A DNA stretch of 64,000 bases from Kitasatospora sp. CB01950. Lineage in GTDB: Bacteria > Actinomycetota > Actinomycetes > Streptomycetales > Streptomycetaceae. Positions 22,373 through 63,438 of this stretch are shown here, piece after piece. The DNA is taken from contig NZ_LISX01000002.1 in the NCBI RefSeq assembly GCF_001905465.1, positions 371,425-435,424 on the forward strand, given 5' to 3'. Position 1 is the stretch's first letter, and each line of letters opens with the position of its first letter. Below the pieces are notes generated by a model. The model was given only the letters and a program-made list of their open reading frames with translations, ran no database searches and was not told where the DNA came from. The translations under genes were made by a program, and so were the position numbers.

Positions 22373-23752
22373 TCACACCGCCTGGCGGTCCCTGCCCCGG
22401 GGGCGGGAGTGGCGGCCGGAGCCCGGGGCGGGCTGGAGTTCGGCGCGGGGGGCGTAGCGGGCGGCGGGGGCGCGCAGCAGCCAGTTCCGGCCGGCCGGGG
22501 CGGCGAGCCCCATGCGGTGGAGCAGGTCGAGCGCGTCGCGGCGGAACGCGGCGAGGTCGGCGAGGTAGCCGGCGTCCCATCCGGCGCTCATGCCGTAGTC
22601 GTCGGTGATGTCGCCGAGGGTGCCGTCGATGAGGGCGTCGGGGATCAGCACGGCGGGCGGGGCGCTCTCGGTGTCGACGGGGCGGAGGTCCTCGACCAGG
22701 CGTTCGGCGAGGAGCAGCGCGGCCTGGGCGAGGGTGCCGGTGCCGGGGAGGGCGAGGTCGGTGAGTTCGTCGGCGGGGTCGAGCAGGGCGATGCCTTCGG
22801 CGCGGATCTCGGCGGTGAGGCCGAGCACGTCGGCGAATCGTTCCGTCTCTGCGGGGGCGGCCTCGCGCAGGTGGTCGCGCTCGGCGGGCGCGAGGTCGTC
22901 GAGGAGCACCACGGGGGTTTCGGCGAGCAGCCGGCGGACGGTCGATTCGGGCCCGGCGGGCGGCAGTTCGGGTGCGGTGAGCAGGTCGGCGGCGAGTTCG
23001 GGGGTCGGCTGCCACCGGTCGAGCACGGCCCGTACGGCGTCGGGCACGGCGTCCGGCTGTGCGCCGCGGCCGATCTCGCCGAGCGCGCGGACGAGGGCGG
23101 CGTATCCGGCGGGGTCGAGGCCGGGCAGGCCGCGGCCGGGGAGGGCGGCCTTGTGCAGGCGGGCGTGGGCGGGGCCGAGGGTGAGCCGGTAGCCGAGCAG
23201 GGTGTGGAAGCGTTCGGCGAGGGTGGCGGCGTGACGGCGGATCAGCGGGAGGGACGCGCCGTGCGGGCCGTCGGCAGTGACCAGCGGGTGGGTGAGCAGC
23301 AGCCGGGCGGCGATGCGCAGTTCGGTGGTGGGGCGTTCGGGTTTGCGGTGCCGGCCGCCGCCGGTGGGGCGGGGGGCGGGCAGTGCGGGGCCTTCGCGCC
23401 GTATCCGGCGGTAGTCGAGGGGCCGGAACAGCGGGGAGGTGGTGTGGTGGACGCTCGGTCCGTGCCACCAGCTGGTGCCGGGTGCGGGTTCGGCCTGCTG
23501 GGGTGCGCCGCCGAGGTGTCGGGCGCCGTACGCGCCGAACACGGCGGAGGCCAGCAGGTCCGCCCCGGCCGGCTCGGCGGCGGCGAACCTCCCGGCCAAT
23601 TCCCGTACGGAATCGGCGAGTTCGCTTCCGGTACCGGCGTCCGCCGGGTACGGCCGGGTGGCGGCCGCGAGGCGTGTCGCCCCGCCCGTGCGTCCGATCC
23701 CCGTGCCGCCGGTGGCCGTTCGGGCGCCGGCGGCTGCTTCCTGCCGCTCCAT
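22373..23752 (-). CDS. DUF2398/TIGR02678-family protein (JetB-like), orphan
   Basis: 459 residues from ATG 23752. After a variable 140-residue N-terminus the chain follows the TIGR02678 pattern: LRIAARLLLTHPLVTADGPH, LIRRHAATLAERFHTLLGYR, LHKAALPGRG, then LTDLALPGTGTLAQAALLLA, GWDAGYLADLAAFRRDALDL and LLRAPAARYAPRAEL at the end. Members of this family are the KITE-like JetB subunit of one type of Wadjet SMC system, encoded with DUF2397 (JetA), an SMC (JetC) and DUF2399 (JetD). None of those partners is next to this gene: neighbours are a cold-shock protein and a hydroxylase. It may be a relic, or may act with partners elsewhere. Family assignment is from motif memory only. Confidence 0.6.
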   Translation of the reverse strand: MERQEAAAGARTATGGTGIGRTGGATRLAAATRPYPADAGTGSELADSVRELAGRFAAAEPAGADLLASAVFGAYGARHLGGAPQQAEPAPGTSWWHGPSVHHTTSPLFRPLDYRRIRREGPALPAPRPTGGGRHRKPERPTTELRIAARLLLTHPLVTADGPHGASLPLIRRHAATLAERFHTLLGYRLTLGPAHARLHKAALPGRGLPGLDPAGYAALVRALGEIGRGAQPDAVPDAVRAVLDRWQPTPELAADLLTAPELPPAGPESTVRRLLAETPVVLLDDLAPAERDHLREAAPAETERFADVLGLTAEIRAEGIALLDPADELTDLALPGTGTLAQAALLLAERLVEDLRPVDTESAPPAVLIPDALIDGTLGDITDDYGMSAGWDAGYLADLAAFRRDALDLLHRMGLAAPAGRNWLLRAPAARYAPRAELQPAPGSGRHSRPRGRDRQAV

Positions 23753-23841
23753 GTCGCCCCCAAGCCTAGACGCCGAACCGGACTGTACGCGCCGGTAACT
23801 ACCTCTTCCGCACGCCGCCCGGGTCCCTTATGGTTCCGGGC

Positions 23842-24717
23842 ATGCCTCACCTGCCCGATGTCGTGCTGTGGTCGATACCGGCCTTTGTGCTGCTCACCGT
23901 TCTGGAGATCGCCTCCTACCGGTTCCACCCCGACGACGACGAGCAGGGCTATGCCGCGAAGGACACCGCGGCCAGCCTGTCGATGGGTCTGGGGTCGCTG
24001 CTGTTCGACGCCGGGTGGAAGATCCCGATCGTGGCGATCTACTCGTTCCTGTACGAGTTGACGCCGCTTCGGGCGCCGGTGCTGTGGTGGACGGTGCCGC
24101 TGATGCTGCTCGCCTACGACTTCTTCTACTACTGGTCGCACCGCGGCCACCACGTGATCCGCGTGCTGTGGGCCTGCCACGTGGTGCACCACTCCAGCCG
24201 CCACTACAACCTGTCGACGGCGCTGCGCCAGCCCTGGACGTCCGTCACCGGCTGGGTGTTCTACGTGCCGATGATCCTGGCGGGCGTGCACCCGGCGGCG
24301 GTGGCGTTCTGCAGCTCGGTGAACCTGGTGTACCAGTTCTGGATCCACACCGAGCGGATCGGGAAGCTGCCCCGGCCGATCGAGTACCTGTTCAACACGC
24401 CGTCGCACCACCGGGTGCACCACGCCTCGCAGGGCGGCTACCTGGACCGCAACTTCGGCGGCGTCCTGATCGTCTTCGACCGCTGGTTCGGCTCCTTCGC
24501 GGCCGAGGCCGCGCAGCCGGTGTACGGACTGACCAAGAACATATCGACCTACAATCCGTTGAAGGTCGCCACCCACGAGTACGCGGCGATCGCCCGGGAC
24601 GTCGCGCGTGCCACCAGCTGGGGAGACCGGCTGCGCCACCTGGCGAAGGGCCCGGGCTGGCAGCCCGCGCCGCGTACCGAGACCCCTGCCGCCTCACCGG
24701 AGAGTGCCCCCGCATGA
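23842..24717 (+). CDS. Fatty acid hydroxylase superfamily protein, alkylglycerol monooxygenase-like
   Basis: 291 residues from ATG 23842; TATGGT lies 7 nt upstream with no ribosome binding site, which favours it over ATG 23830. Four to five membrane helices carry the di-iron histidines: SHRGHH (H100, H103, H104), CHVVHHSS (H113, H116, H117), H121, IHTE (H169) and PSHHRVHH (H189-H194). The surrounding text (HYNLSTALRQPW, YQFWIHTE, FNTPSHHRVHH, VYGLTKNISTYNPLKV and a closing KGPGW) is strikingly like animal alkylglycerol monooxygenase (TMEM195), more than sterol C5 or C4 desaturases. That enzyme cleaves the O-alkyl bond of ether glycerolipids using tetrahydrobiopterin. The stop overlaps the start of a lysoplasmalogenase gene, supporting a role in ether lipid breakdown (inference). 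Confidence 0.85.
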   Translation: MPHLPDVVLWSIPAFVLLTVLEIASYRFHPDDDEQGYAAKDTAASLSMGLGSLLFDAGWKIPIVAIYSFLYELTPLRAPVLWWTVPLMLLAYDFFYYWSHRGHHVIRVLWACHVVHHSSRHYNLSTALRQPWTSVTGWVFYVPMILAGVHPAAVAFCSSVNLVYQFWIHTERIGKLPRPIEYLFNTPSHHRVHHASQGGYLDRNFGGVLIVFDRWFGSFAAEAAQPVYGLTKNISTYNPLKVATHEYAAIARDVARATSWGDRLRHLAKGPGWQPAPRTETPAASPESAPA

Positions 24718-25403
24718 GCCCCGCCCGTGACCCGCGCACCGCGCGGGCCCTGCTGATCGCCTTCGCCGCCGCCTCGGCCGCGCACCTGCTGGGGATCGTC
24801 CTCCAGCTGCACCCGCTGCACTACGCCACCAAGCCGCTGCTGATGCCGCTGCTGGCCGCCTGGGTGTGGGCGTCGGCACGGCCCGCGACGCCCAAACTGC
24901 TGATCCCGGCGCTGCTGTTCGGCGCGGGCGGCGACATCCTGCTGGAGATCGGCGGCACCGGCGGGTTCCTGGCCGGCATGGGCTCGTTCGCGGTCGGCCA
25001 CGCCTGCTACGTGACGATGTTCGTGAAGCTCGGCGCGCTCGCCGACCGCCGCCGCACCGCGCTCCTCGCGGTCGGCTACGCGGTGGTCTGGGCGACGCTG
25101 ATCACCCTGCTGCTGCCCGACCTGGACGCCGGCATGCGGATCCCGATGGCCTGCTACAGCCTGCTGCTGGCCGCCACCGCGCTGACCTCGTCCCGGATCG
25201 ACTGGCGGGCGGGCGTGGGCGGTGCGCTGTTCCTGCTGTCCGACACGCTGATCGCCACCGACATCGCGCACTGGAAGCACCTGCCGATGCACAGCTTCCT
25301 GATCATGCTGACCTACCTCGTCGGCCAGTACCTGCTGACCATCGGCACCCTGCGGCGCACCGACTCCCCCGCCCCGCAGCCCGCCGTGGCGCCGGCGGTC
25401 TGA
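24714..25403 (+). CDS. YhhN-family lysoplasmalogenase
   Basis: 229 residues from ATG 24714, overlapping the previous stop as ATGA. Eight membrane segments and the family landmarks LLFGAGGDILLEI (Asp 74), GSFAVGHACYVTMF and LFLLSDTLIATD (Asp 177) identify the YhhN/TMEM86 family. The two Asp residues correspond to the catalytic pair that hydrates the vinyl ether of lysoplasmalogens, releasing a fatty aldehyde. Translational coupling to an alkylglycerol-monooxygenase-like gene is informative because both families act on ether-linked glycerolipids. The gene ends before a strong hairpin terminator. Confidence 0.88.
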   Translation: MSPARDPRTARALLIAFAAASAAHLLGIVLQLHPLHYATKPLLMPLLAAWVWASARPATPKLLIPALLFGAGGDILLEIGGTGGFLAGMGSFAVGHACYVTMFVKLGALADRRRTALLAVGYAVVWATLITLLLPDLDAGMRIPMACYSLLLAATALTSSRIDWRAGVGGALFLLSDTLIATDIAHWKHLPMHSFLIMLTYLVGQYLLTIGTLRRTDSPAPQPAVAPAV

Positions 25404-25415
25404 CGCACGCGGAAG

Positions 25416-25449
25416 AGGGCGGCCCCACCGTGACGGTGGGTGCCGCCCT
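25416..25449. terminator. Bidirectional hairpin terminator
   Basis: AGGGCGGC (25416-25423) pairs with GCCGCCCT (25442-25449), and inside it CACCG pairs with CGGTG around a TGA loop. It lies between the convergent lysoplasmalogenase gene and the secreted protein gene ending at 25510. Confidence 0.8.
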
Positions 25450-25509
25450 CCGTGCTCTCCGGGGGACGCGGAGCCTGCCGGGTACGGTGGGCGCGTACCG
25501 GCGGGCCGC

Positions 25510-26124
25510 TCAGGGCGTCCGGCCGGTGGCCGACCCGCGGCGGCGCAGCAGCCAGAACCCGGCCACCCCCGCCGTCACCAGCGCGGCCCCGGCGGCCAGC
25601 CGCCCGGCGTCCATGCCGACCGATCCGCCGACCCCGGTCTCCACCCCGCCGTGCGGAAGCCTGCTGCCCTCCCACTCGCCGCCGGTGCCGCCGTTTCCGG
25701 ACGTGCTGCCGCTGCCGGCCGCGGCGCCGCTGACGGCGACCGCGCCGACGAACGTGTCGCCGTTCGGGCACTTGCCGTCGATGCCCCAGGACGACTCGCC
25801 GGCGCTGCCGCGCTTGACGGCGGCGTCGACCATCTCCTTCGCGGAGATGACGGTCGCGGTGCCGGAGTACTTGCCGTCGGGGCCGACGCTGAGCGTGGTC
25901 GAGCCGCCGGCGAAGACCGGCGAGGTCGCGGTCAGGGACTTCGTCGAACTGCCGGCGCAGTTCACGCTGACCGCGACGGACTGGCCGGGCTGCGCCTGCG
26001 CCGGGCTGACCCAGGCGGGCTGGCTGCCCTTGGCGGACGCGGGGCCGGCCAGGGCGAGCAGTGCGGTGGTGCCGAGCAGTGCGGTGGTGCCGAGCAGAGC
26101 GGCGGCGGTGCGCGTTCGGCGCAT
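25510..26124 (-). CDS. Secreted, membrane-anchored protein of unknown function
   Basis: 204 residues from ATG 26124 behind GGAGG. A signal peptide (residues 1-31, ending ASA-KG) contains an in-frame six-residue duplication, LLGTTA-LLGTTA, from an 18-bp tandem repeat at 26056-26091. The mature part is beta-rich with two Cys residues (VNCAGSS, GKCPNG), followed by a Gly/Ser linker, the PHGGVETGVGGSVG stretch and a final membrane helix with RRRGS at the end. The VETGVGG-type tail before the helix is common in streptomycete surface proteins and recalls, but does not match, a sortase signal. Confidence 0.8.
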   Translation of the reverse strand: MRRTRTAAALLGTTALLGTTALLALAGPASAKGSQPAWVSPAQAQPGQSVAVSVNCAGSSTKSLTATSPVFAGGSTTLSVGPDGKYSGTATVISAKEMVDAAVKRGSAGESSWGIDGKCPNGDTFVGAVAVSGAAAGSGSTSGNGGTGGEWEGSRLPHGGVETGVGGSVGMDAGRLAAGAALVTAGVAGFWLLRRRGSATGRTP

Positions 26125-60386: not shown

Positions 60387-61625
60387 TCAGCCGACCACGC
60401 CCCTCCGGTCCGTCGCCCAGTGCACCAGCGGCAGCAGCGGCAGCACCCCCGCCAGCCCCGCGACCGCCCACCAGCCGCCCGCGTGGTAGGCGACCGTGCC
60501 GAACTCCGAGCCCAGTGCACCGCCGAGGAAGAACGTCGCGATGAAGACGCTGTTGAGACGGGCCCTGGCGGACGGGTCGAGCCGGTAGACGACGTGCTGG
60601 CCGAGAATCAGCGCGGTCTGGACGGCGACGTCGAGGAGGATCGCGGCGAGGGCCAGCAGCACGATGCGGTGGGCGCCGAGGCCCGCGAGCAGCGCGCTCG
60701 CGGAGGCGAGCAGCAGGGCCGCCCCCGTGAGCGGTCGGCCGAGGCCGCGGTCCGCCCAGCGTCCGGCCGCCGGGGCGACCAGCGCGCCCGCCGCGCCGAC
60801 CAGCGCGAAGATGCCGACGCCCGTCTCCGAGTACCCGAACGCCGGTCCGGTGAGCTGGAACGAGACGGTCGTCCAGAAGGCGCTGAACGACCCGAACACC
60901 GCCGCCTGGTAGAGCCCGCGCTTCCACAGCGCCGGGTGGGTGCGGACCAACCGCACGGTGGAGCGCAGCACCTGGTGGTACGGCAGGTCGGTGGTGGCCG
61001 CGTGTCGCGGCAGGGCCCGGTACAGGGCGAGGGCGAGCAGCGCCGTGAGCGCGGCCGAGCCGAGGTAGACCACCCGCCAGCCGGCCGCGTCCGCGACCAG
61101 GCTGCTCACGGCGCGGGAGAGCAGGATGCCGCTGAGCAGTCCGGCCATCACCCGGCCGACGATCCGGCCACGGCTGTGGTCGGGGGCGAGTCCGGCCGCG
61201 AACGGGACCAGGATCTGCGCGACCACCGAGGTCGCGCCGCTGACCAGCGAGGCGATCAGCAGGACGGCGAAGCTGCGGGCCGTACCCGCCACGATCATCG
61301 CGACGGTGGTGACGCCCAGCAGCAGGGCCACCAGCCGCCGCTTCTCGATCCGGTCGCCGAGCGGCACCAGGAACAGCATTCCGACCACGTACCCGACCTG
61401 AGTGGCCGTCACCAGCGCGCCCGCCGTGGCGGTGCCGATGTGGAAGACCTCGGCCAGCGTGGCGAGCAGCGGCTGCGCGTAGTACAGGTTGGCGGCCGTC
61501 ATGCCGGTGGAGACGGCGAGCAGCGCGACGAGCCGGCCGGGCACGCCGCTGTCCTGCGCGCGGTGGGGAGCCGGGGGTCCGGCCGGTGCGGTGGTGACTG
61601 GTGTGGTGGTCGGCGTGGTGGCCAT
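60387..61625 (-). CDS. MFS transporter (DHA1-like exporter)
   Basis: 412 residues from ATG 61625, with GGAGGG nine bases upstream; the longer frame to 61745 would start at a TTG without support. Twelve membrane helices. MFS signatures are VGMLFLVPLGDRIEKRRLVA between helices 2 and 3 and GRWADRGLGRPLTGAALLLA in the second half. NLYYAQPLLATLA at helix 1 is typical of arabinose/chloramphenicol-type efflux proteins (YnfM-like). Drug or sugar export is likely. Confidence 0.9.
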   Translation of the reverse strand: MATTPTTTPVTTAPAGPPAPHRAQDSGVPGRLVALLAVSTGMTAANLYYAQPLLATLAEVFHIGTATAGALVTATQVGYVVGMLFLVPLGDRIEKRRLVALLLGVTTVAMIVAGTARSFAVLLIASLVSGATSVVAQILVPFAAGLAPDHSRGRIVGRVMAGLLSGILLSRAVSSLVADAAGWRVVYLGSAALTALLALALYRALPRHAATTDLPYHQVLRSTVRLVRTHPALWKRGLYQAAVFGSFSAFWTTVSFQLTGPAFGYSETGVGIFALVGAAGALVAPAAGRWADRGLGRPLTGAALLLASASALLAGLGAHRIVLLALAAILLDVAVQTALILGQHVVYRLDPSARARLNSVFIATFFLGGALGSEFGTVAYHAGGWWAVAGLAGVLPLLPLVHWATDRRGVVG

Positions 61626-61748
61626 GGGAGTTGCCCTCCGGGTGGTCGGGTCGCGGTCGATGGCTGCGGCGATCGCAGCGTGCACGTGTGTGAGCACCGG
61701 AGGCCCGGCCCGTGCTTCCCGTCCGGTCGCGATGATCCACGACAACTG

Positions 61749-61817: not shown

Positions 61818-62651
61818 TCAGTCCGCGACCGTCTTCGGCGCCCAGCCCGGGCCGCGCAGTACGTGTCCGAGCCGGTCGGACCAGGTGCGGGCGGCGAGCA
61901 CGTCGCGGGCGATCGCGGCGAGTTCGTGGGTCTGGACGCGCAGGATGTTGTACGTGCCGATGTTCTTGGTGAGGCCGTAGCGGACGCGTTCGCCCTCGGG
62001 CTCGAAGGTGCCGAAGAGCCGGTCCCAGACGATCAGGATGCCGCCGTAGTTCTTGTCGAGGTACTGGCCCTGCGAGCCGTGGTGGGCGCGGTGGTGGCTC
62101 GGCGTGTTGAGGACGAACTCGGCGGGTGCCCACAGCTTGTCGACCAGCTCGGTGTGGATGAAGAACTGGTAGACCAGGTTGATCGCGAAGCAGGCCGTCA
62201 GCACCTCCGGGCGGACGCCGACCAGCACGACCGGGAGCAGGAACGGCAGTGCGGTGACGGCCAGGAGGAACGGCTGCCGCAGGGCGACCGAGAGGTTGTA
62301 CTGCTCGCTGCTGTGGTGCACCACGTGCACCGCCCAGAGCACCCGTATCTCGTGGTGGGCACGGTGGAACCAGTAGTACGCGAAGTCGACGGCGACCATC
62401 CCCGCGACCCAGGCCGGCCACCCGGTGAGCTCCCACGGAACCGCCGAGTGCAGCCGCAGCAGCACCACGGCCTCGACCAACGCCCATGGTGCGGCGACCA
62501 GTTGGTTGCCGACGGCGGTGGCGATGTTCAGCAGCGAGTCGCGCCGGTCGTAGGAGGGCAGCCGCCGTCGGCGCAGCACGAACAGCTCCACGAGCATGCC
62601 GAGGAGGAAAACCGGGGCGGAGAGCCAGAGCACGAGCGATGCGAGGTCCAT
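61818..62651 (-). CDS. Fatty acid hydroxylase superfamily protein, alkylglycerol monooxygenase-like (copy 2)
   Basis: 277 residues from ATG 62651. It is a clear paralogue of the protein at 23842: FHRAHH (H96, H99, H100), VHVVHHSSEQYNLSVALRQP (H109-H113), YQFFIHTE, FVLNTPSHHRAHH, and the tail RYGLTKNIGTYNILRVQTHE and RGPGW. All di-iron His groups are present. Three or four membrane helices. The text again resembles animal alkylglycerol monooxygenase. It is divergent from a FadR-type regulator across a FadR-like operator, suggesting control by acyl-CoA or another lipid signal. It lacks a lysoplasmalogenase neighbour. Confidence 0.85.
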   Translation of the reverse strand: MDLASLVLWLSAPVFLLGMLVELFVLRRRRLPSYDRRDSLLNIATAVGNQLVAAPWALVEAVVLLRLHSAVPWELTGWPAWVAGMVAVDFAYYWFHRAHHEIRVLWAVHVVHHSSEQYNLSVALRQPFLLAVTALPFLLPVVLVGVRPEVLTACFAINLVYQFFIHTELVDKLWAPAEFVLNTPSHHRAHHGSQGQYLDKNYGGILIVWDRLFGTFEPEGERVRYGLTKNIGTYNILRVQTHELAAIARDVLAARTWSDRLGHVLRGPGWAPKTVAD

Positions 62652-62704: not shown

Positions 62705-62739
62705 TCCGCTCCCCGACGCACCTGGATATGCTGTGCCGC

Positions 62740-63438
62740 GTGAACCTCCGACCCGTGGGCCCCATGCCGCTCTCCGGCCAGATCCACCGTCAGCTGATGG
62801 ACGCGATCCTCGACGGCACGCTCACCGGCGCCCTCCCGTCCGAACGCGAACTCGCCGAGACCTTCGGCGCCAACCGCCACGCCGTCCGCGAGGCCATCAA
62901 GCGCCTGCAGCAGGGCAAGCTCGTCGAGGTCAACCAGGGCGGCGCCACCCGCGTGCTGCCCGTCGCCGATCATGCCGGGCTCGACCTGCTCCCCGAACTG
63001 GTCACCGCCCGGGGCGCGTTGAACGACGAGGCCACCGTCGGCGTCCTCGAACTCCGCGCCTGCATCGGCGCCGACGCCGCCCGCCTCTGCGCCGAACGCT
63101 CCCCGTCCGTCGGCACCCACCTGCTCGACCTGCTGCCGAACGACGCCATGCCCGACGCCGAACTCGCCGCCACCAGCGCCGCCTACTGGACCGCCGTCGT
63201 CACCGGCACCAACAGCCTCCCGTACCGCCTCGCCCTCAACACCCTGCTGGCAGGCCTCGAAGCGATCGGCGACTCCCCGGCCGCCAAGCACTTCATGACC
63301 GCCCTGCGGGACGAGTCCCGCCGGGCGGGCGAGTTGGAGGAACTGGCCCACGCGATCGCCCGCGCCGAGGGCGCTGCGGCGCGCGAGGCGGCGAGCCGGC
63401 TGCTCAACTCGTCGATTGCGGCCGTGCGTTCGATGTAA
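62740..63438 (+). CDS. FadR-subfamily GntR transcriptional regulator
   Basis: 232 residues from GTG 62740 (ATG 62728 is an alternative). TATGCT lies exactly 7 nt before the GTG and there is no ribosome binding site. The winged helix reads LSGQIHRQLMDAILDGTLTG, LPSERELAETFGANRHAVRE and AIKRLQQGKLVEVNQGGATR; the all-helical FCD-type ligand domain follows (VLELRACIGADAARLCAERS). It is probably autoregulatory and controls the divergent hydroxylase gene through the FadR-like box. Confidence 0.9.
   Translation: MNLRPVGPMPLSGQIHRQLMDAILDGTLTGALPSERELAETFGANRHAVREAIKRLQQGKLVEVNQGGATRVLPVADHAGLDLLPELVTARGALNDEATVGVLELRACIGADAARLCAERSPSVGTHLLDLLPNDAMPDAELAATSAAYWTAVVTGTNSLPYRLALNTLLAGLEAIGDSPAAKHFMTALRDESRRAGELEELAHAIARAEGAAAREAASRLLNSSIAAVRSM

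Follow-up and report, generated by a model that had tools for sequence, protein, structure and literature searches.

We describe here a pair of overlapping genes lying in a stretch of 64,000 nucleotides of the genome of Kitasatospora sp. CB01950 (NZ_LISX01000002.1, positions 371,425 to 435,424; hereafter the window), which encode a membrane hydroxylase related to alkylglycerol monooxygenase (AGMO, also TMEM195, EC 1.14.16.5) and a lysoplasmalogenase-family protein, YhhN/TMEM86. The pair is a conserved overlapping unit in many Streptomyces relatives, and its role is most plausibly the cleavage of ether lipids giving a fatty aldehyde. We would put at roughly 0.4 the probability that it forms a translationally coupled two-enzyme membrane unit degrading ether-linked (lyso)glycerolipids. 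The genome measures 7.65 Mb and is 99.94% complete, the window being on contig 12; the elements of the unit are the following:

23842 to 24717, plus strand: AGMO-like membrane di-iron hydroxylase of the FA_hydroxylase family, 291 amino acids, assigned from PF04116 (96.2 bits), its residues and a tree.
24714 to 25403, plus strand: lysoplasmalogenase of the YhhN/TMEM86 family, 229 amino acids, eight predicted helices, assigned from PF07947 (113.2 bits), its residues and a predicted model.
24714 to 24717, plus strand: ATGA overlap between the hydroxylase stop and the YhhN start, read from the sequence.
25405 to 25455, plus strand: strong RNA hairpin past the YhhN stop, without a T run, the likely end of the unit, from folding and shuffles.

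The start of the hydroxylase was set at 23842 and not at 23830 because the orthologues start at the same point, their N-termini sharing M-P-x-L-P-D-V-V; the closest named locus to the pair is that of Kitasatospora phosalacinea (87%). An earlier note, made from the letters of this DNA, had claimed a closed two-gene unit with a stop/start overlap followed by a terminator. The ATGA overlap is indeed what the sequence reads. The terminator stands only in part: the RNA fold of 25404-25500 holds a strong hairpin (z score -4.1, 0/200 shuffles equally stable), but this hairpin has no T run and a consensus scan after the YhhN stop called no terminator. The unit is closed in this window, but in 27/63 paired relatives a co-directional third gene is present. 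A scan for sigma-70-type promoters over 23700-25700 found none.

The hydroxylase is an AGMO-family protein, an assignment made because of its core identity, the residues it keeps and its position in the tree. Its identity to the human AGMO core, a reference sequence entered by hand that matches 16/16 published positions, reaches 47% over 179 aligned residues, compared with 24–32% over 127–137 residues for eight other fatty acid hydroxylases of the order, the third one of this genome included. The 16 positions, as given in the accessible text of PMC3617469 and PMC7911779, are the eight motif histidines, His201, Glu137, Gln162, Asp233, Asn235, Tyr236, Trp243 and Asp244. Thirteen are kept, the changes being Glu137 to Val105, Tyr236 to Phe205 and Trp243 to Phe212. 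All nine histidines are found, i.e. the eight catalytic ones and His201, where the earlier note had counted eight or more ligands, and so are four of the six other residues essential in human AGMO (Gln162, Asp233, Asn235 and Asp244, Tyr236 and Trp243 being the two that differ). Gln162 and Asp233 are missing from 8/8 of the order's other hydroxylases; Asn235 occurs also in 3/8 of them, and Trp243 is retained by 8/8. The likeness extends to the segments YNLSTALRQ, YQFWIHTE, NTPSHHRVHH and GPGW; those named in the earlier note, YNLSTALRQP, NTPSHHRVHH and KGPGW, are all present.

In a tree of 59 of the 64 chosen rows, which took in no verified sterol or carotenoid hydroxylase, human AGMO falls within a clade of 52 rows with a support of 98/90, and six other hydroxylases fall outside; the human branch is long, its row was entered by hand and its exact placement within the clade is not fixed. 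Rows L155–L159 were left out of the tree (core below 120 residues or not extracted); the residue table leaves out L155–L160 and L162, and row L051 is unaligned over the core. A kinship with the order's other fatty acid hydroxylases, considered as a candidate, is ruled out by the identity comparison and the tree, so that identity, residues and tree agree with the likeness to AGMO put forward in the earlier note. The C-terminal domain of AGMO, PF24858 (AGMP_C), had no match in the hydroxylase, in four larger relatives, or in the whole genome, where the search had no control match. No solved structure was significant by sequence as a relative of the hydroxylase or of YhhN (best E 0.25 and 1.1), and fold searches with both proteins returned nothing with an E value of 0.001 or lower. 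For the hydroxylase this says little because its predicted model is weak, with a predicted local distance difference test (pLDDT) score of 66.

The second gene had been claimed as a lysoplasmalogenase, and the family model, the residues and the predicted helices agree with this. Its product scores 113.2 bits with PF07947, above the cut-off of 25.6, and it carries all eight residues proposed as catalytic for TMEM86A/B in the accessible text of PMC11994398, in the same order (K40, G73, D74, H96, G169, S176, D177 and Y201), the assignment having been made through motif order and spacing and not by aligning the human protein. Each of these eight columns is retained in at least 60 of the 61 sequences, i.e. 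its own and those of 60 of 63 paired loci, picked by the overlap start codon and a length above 190. The predicted model has eight helices and a mean pLDDT of 91.3; its fold search returned only weak matches to rhodopsins and receptors, with template modelling scores up to about 0.4. The window YhhN is a lysoplasmalogenase-family protein with intact residues, and hydrolysis of vinyl ethers is predicted from its family. The protein itself shows nothing outside this family; what distinguishes it is that its gene overlaps that of the hydroxylase. YhhN is also the faster changing partner, with a median pairwise identity over 60 pairs of 0.58, compared with 0.80 for the hydroxylase.

The pairing was surveyed, as the earlier note had proposed, in several sets of genomes. 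The named loci are the best 80 of at least 580 confirmed matches in a genome scan, hence biased toward close relatives: in 63 of them the hydroxylase is immediately followed by a co-directional YhhN gene, and 2 of the 17 unpaired loci reach the end of the contig before the hydroxylase stop. In a family sample of 150 genomes evenly drawn, the two genes are adjacent at 70/87 places where the hydroxylase is at least 66% identical (a few being fragments), at 6/14 places between 50 and 66% and at 0/9 below 50%; counted from YhhN, a hydroxylase adjoins it at 76/109 places. All 25 genomes of the genus have YhhN (one copy with in-frame stops), and where the close hydroxylase is present, in ten, the genes are adjacent (10/10). 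The phylum sample of 296 genomes has the hydroxylase in 26, YhhN in 47 and both in 18, an odds ratio of 18.7; without the window's family, the 287 remaining genomes give 19, 40 and 11, an odds ratio of 11.3, both values being uncorrected for kinship. The pair exists also outside the main clade, in one genome (G028, row L045) whose hydroxylase has Arg at position 137. At two loci, L108 and L097, weak YhhN matches downstream of the hydroxylase (E about 1e-5 and 9e-5) are possibly what is left of a decayed second gene.

Among the 63 adjacent pairs, 61 have genes that overlap by 4 bases, the start codon being in frame with YhhN (48 GTGA and 13 ATGA), which is more than chance. About a dozen families flank the pair on each side across the loci, according to a rough gene caller some of whose calls are probably spurious antisense frames; the pair is thus kept where its neighbours change. 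A search of plasmids matched 56 records, five of which were examined. One of them, p3211-1 of Streptomyces sp. 3211 (L163, 4001-5541), carries a diverged pair, recorded as a sterol desaturase family protein next to a lysoplasmalogenase, between transposase genes, YhhN there being 42% identical to that of the window and the hydroxylase having Thr at the position of Glu137. For the plasmids of Tsukamurella, Spirosoma, Neorhizobium and Cupriavidus the gene table, which is incomplete, lists no lysoplasmalogenase next to the hydroxylase.

These data bear on the view that the two are independent membrane-lipid housekeeping genes, sharing one messenger RNA for dosage or by descent, with YhhN detoxifying external lysoplasmalogens and the hydroxylase unrelated to it. 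YhhN is found without the hydroxylase and vice versa, and the M. tuberculosis YhhN, described as a lysoplasmalogenase, guards spheroplasts of M. smegmatis, when expressed in them, against lysoplasmenylcholine (PMC9052158, a paper whose accessible text mentions no operon, desaturase or hydroxylase). On the other hand the overlap is kept in 61/63 pairs despite a variable hydroxylase tail and about a dozen flanking genes, and the plasmid copy holds both genes together. We consider such independence as rather improbable.

In the reading that we retain, the translation of the hydroxylase and YhhN would be coupled through the overlap. The AGMO-family di-iron enzyme would first oxidise the ether-linked alkyl carbon, the product being an unstable hemiacetal that would break into a fatty aldehyde and a glycerol compound, with a reductant that might be, e.g., ferredoxin in place of tetrahydrobiopterin (BH4) held by Glu137. 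YhhN, by its family, would hydrolyse the vinyl ether of a lysoplasmalogen, here again with release of a fatty aldehyde. AGMO-type and YhhN-type reactions both yield fatty aldehyde, and because they meet there, the third gene of some relatives would find an explanation: a zinc-binding alcohol dehydrogenase starts 15–87 bases past YhhN on the same strand in 27/63 pairs (families PF08240 and PF00107, from a model search made on one copy, that of L104) and might handle the aldehyde where present. The window itself has no alcohol dehydrogenase after YhhN. The lipids would more likely come from other organisms, through uptake, than be synthesised by the cell itself. PF10520 (plasmalogen desaturase), the only ether-lipid synthesis family sought, had no match in the genome, in a search without a control match.

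Several observations weigh against ether-lipid cleavage by this pair, or at least against its resemblance to the animal reaction. The first concern the pairing. YhhN occurs in 25/25 genomes of the genus as against 10 for the close hydroxylase, so that neither gene needs the other. Among the distant hydroxylase carriers of the order YhhN is adjacent in 1/12 only (G028), and 17 of the 87 close hydroxylase places of the family sample have no YhhN alongside, 11 of them in genomes without any YhhN match. In the phylum sample, 6 of the 18 genomes with both families have them adjacent, all 6 within the window's family, and on p3211-1 a gap of 29 bases takes the place of the overlap. As to the third gene, the dehydrogenase of L104 falls under every listed NCBIfam cut-off.

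The other observations concern the residues and the cofactor. Trp243, described in the accessible text of PMC3617469 as shared by all members of the hydroxylase family, is replaced by Phe in the window hydroxylase. Only one of the 80 named loci has this change, which is frequent within the window's genus (its own hydroxylase and 7/9 others), while Tyr236 is Phe in 73 of the 80. The human mutants tested were to Ala, in the same text, and Phe at Tyr236 or Trp243 may therefore be tolerated. Glu137, there reported as required for the interaction with BH4 and absent from other hydroxylases, is missing from 79/80 close loci (Val 72, Met 3, Arg 2, Ala 1, Leu 1, Glu 1). At 28 places of the phylum sample the same position is Glu in 12, Val in 7, Arg in 7 and Gln in 2; by these counts Glu is widespread in the wider bacterial relatives and missing from the line of the window hydroxylase.

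PTPS is a family of BH4 synthesis. It has no match in the genome of the window, while 9/14 control genomes match, which again weighs on the negative side. BH4 is unlikely to serve as it does in animals because Glu137 is Val here and the genome is without a PTPS match, and a dependence of the window hydroxylase on BH4 is thus unlikely on sequence grounds. For the bacterial AGMO-like family as a whole, the use of BH4 is unproven. Glu137 was considered as a general bacterial marker of BH4 and rejected, the presence of Glu not following that of PTPS: PTPS is found in 2/12 Glu-bearing genomes of the phylum sample (this genome being counted with them), in 4/7 Val-bearing ones and in 123/296 overall. 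The comparison is a weak test because the PTPS family also takes in QueD. The AGMO reading proposed in the earlier note is partly supported: the kinship stands, whereas the residue that binds BH4, Tyr236 and Trp243 differ and PTPS has no match.

A second AGMO-like hydroxylase lies in the window at 61818-62651 on the minus strand, 49% identical and with 16/16 AGMO positions, Glu137 included. It adjoins a divergent GntR regulator (62728-63438, plus strand) and an MFS transporter (60387-61745, minus strand); on the Tsukamurella plasmid, too, an AGMO-like gene is grouped with a gene of the GntR and one of the MFS type.

The loss of Glu137 might alternatively reflect a relay, in which the hydroxylase homologue would be an ether desaturase converting O-alkyl to O-alk-1-enyl lysolipids and YhhN would then hydrolyse the vinyl ether: a BH4-free, two-enzyme replacement of AGMO, completed in some species by the alcohol dehydrogenase, which would act on the aldehyde. 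The hydroxylase superfamily includes desaturases. Such a relay accounts both for a coupling in series and for the disappearance of Glu137 from the clade that has the pair, YhhN being adjacent to 0/13 Glu-bearing hydroxylases (12 places of the phylum sample and 1 named locus) versus 63/80 best named loci, 79 of which are without Glu. However kinship confounds this contrast: there are relatives that have Val but no YhhN, and unlinked ones that have Arg. The published AGMO-like enzymes, as far as their accessible descriptions go, comprise one oxygenase that cleaves ethers and one cyclase. We regard the relay as a long shot; if true, it would be a new bacterial route of ether-bond cleavage.

Another possibility is that the hydroxylase acts on a different lipid or on a natural product (e.g. 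ornithine lipid, prenyl compound, pigment), with YhhN acting either on the resulting compound or on a lysolipid formed as a by-product, without any ether lipid. It takes its weight from PRUB680 of Pseudoalteromonas rubra, a characterised bacterial AGMO-related oxygenase that we compared by its description only: in the accessible text it cyclises prodigiosin, which also counts against ether cleavage here, and its gene is said to sit apart from the pigment cluster. Ether cleavage is not readable from the family because a bacterial AGMO-like enzyme with a different reaction is known. Besides, the sole NCBIfam match of the window hydroxylase is the ornithine-lipid hydroxylase OlsE (NF052566), at 38.1 bits and thus far under the equivalog cut-off of 475. 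Against a different substrate, the flanks vary over the 80 loci and, among the 14 neighbour families viewed, few of which were named by models, they share no biosynthetic set besides the dehydrogenase in 27/63 pairs. Such a role seems to us unlikely, though it deserves serious attention; ether-lipid cleavage is the reading we retain.

AGMO is described, in the accessible text of PMC7911779 and PMC3617469, as the sole enzyme known to cleave alkyl ether lipids and as hard to purify. Bacterial relatives about half identical to it in the core, and lying beside a lysoplasmalogenase, could be workable stand-ins, and with them one could ask if BH4 was added late. The ether-lipid question lends itself to direct testing, given the pairing, the absence of Glu137 and the dehydrogenase. 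In the open-licence literature, subscription papers being mostly outside the search, we found no paper on the pairing of an AGMO-like hydroxylase with a lysoplasmalogenase and none on a lysoplasmalogenase operon in Streptomyces. The phospholipase D of Thermocrispum, which also acts on lysoplasmalogens, cuts the phosphoester and not the ether, as far as its accessible description goes.

Two other neighbours of the hydroxylase gene were observed. A gene for a membrane protein of the VIT family (PF01988), an iron or manganese transporter family, lies directly upstream and co-directional in 16/63 pairs (5082-5804 in L060, on which alone the model search was made); it may or may not be related to the di-iron enzyme. 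In the window, what looks like a fused or orphan Wadjet fragment (other Wadjet genes were not searched for) is the divergent neighbour, at 22373-23752 on the minus strand; it joins a piece of DUF2397 to a DUF2398 domain and matches the Wadjet JetA2 and JetB2 models.
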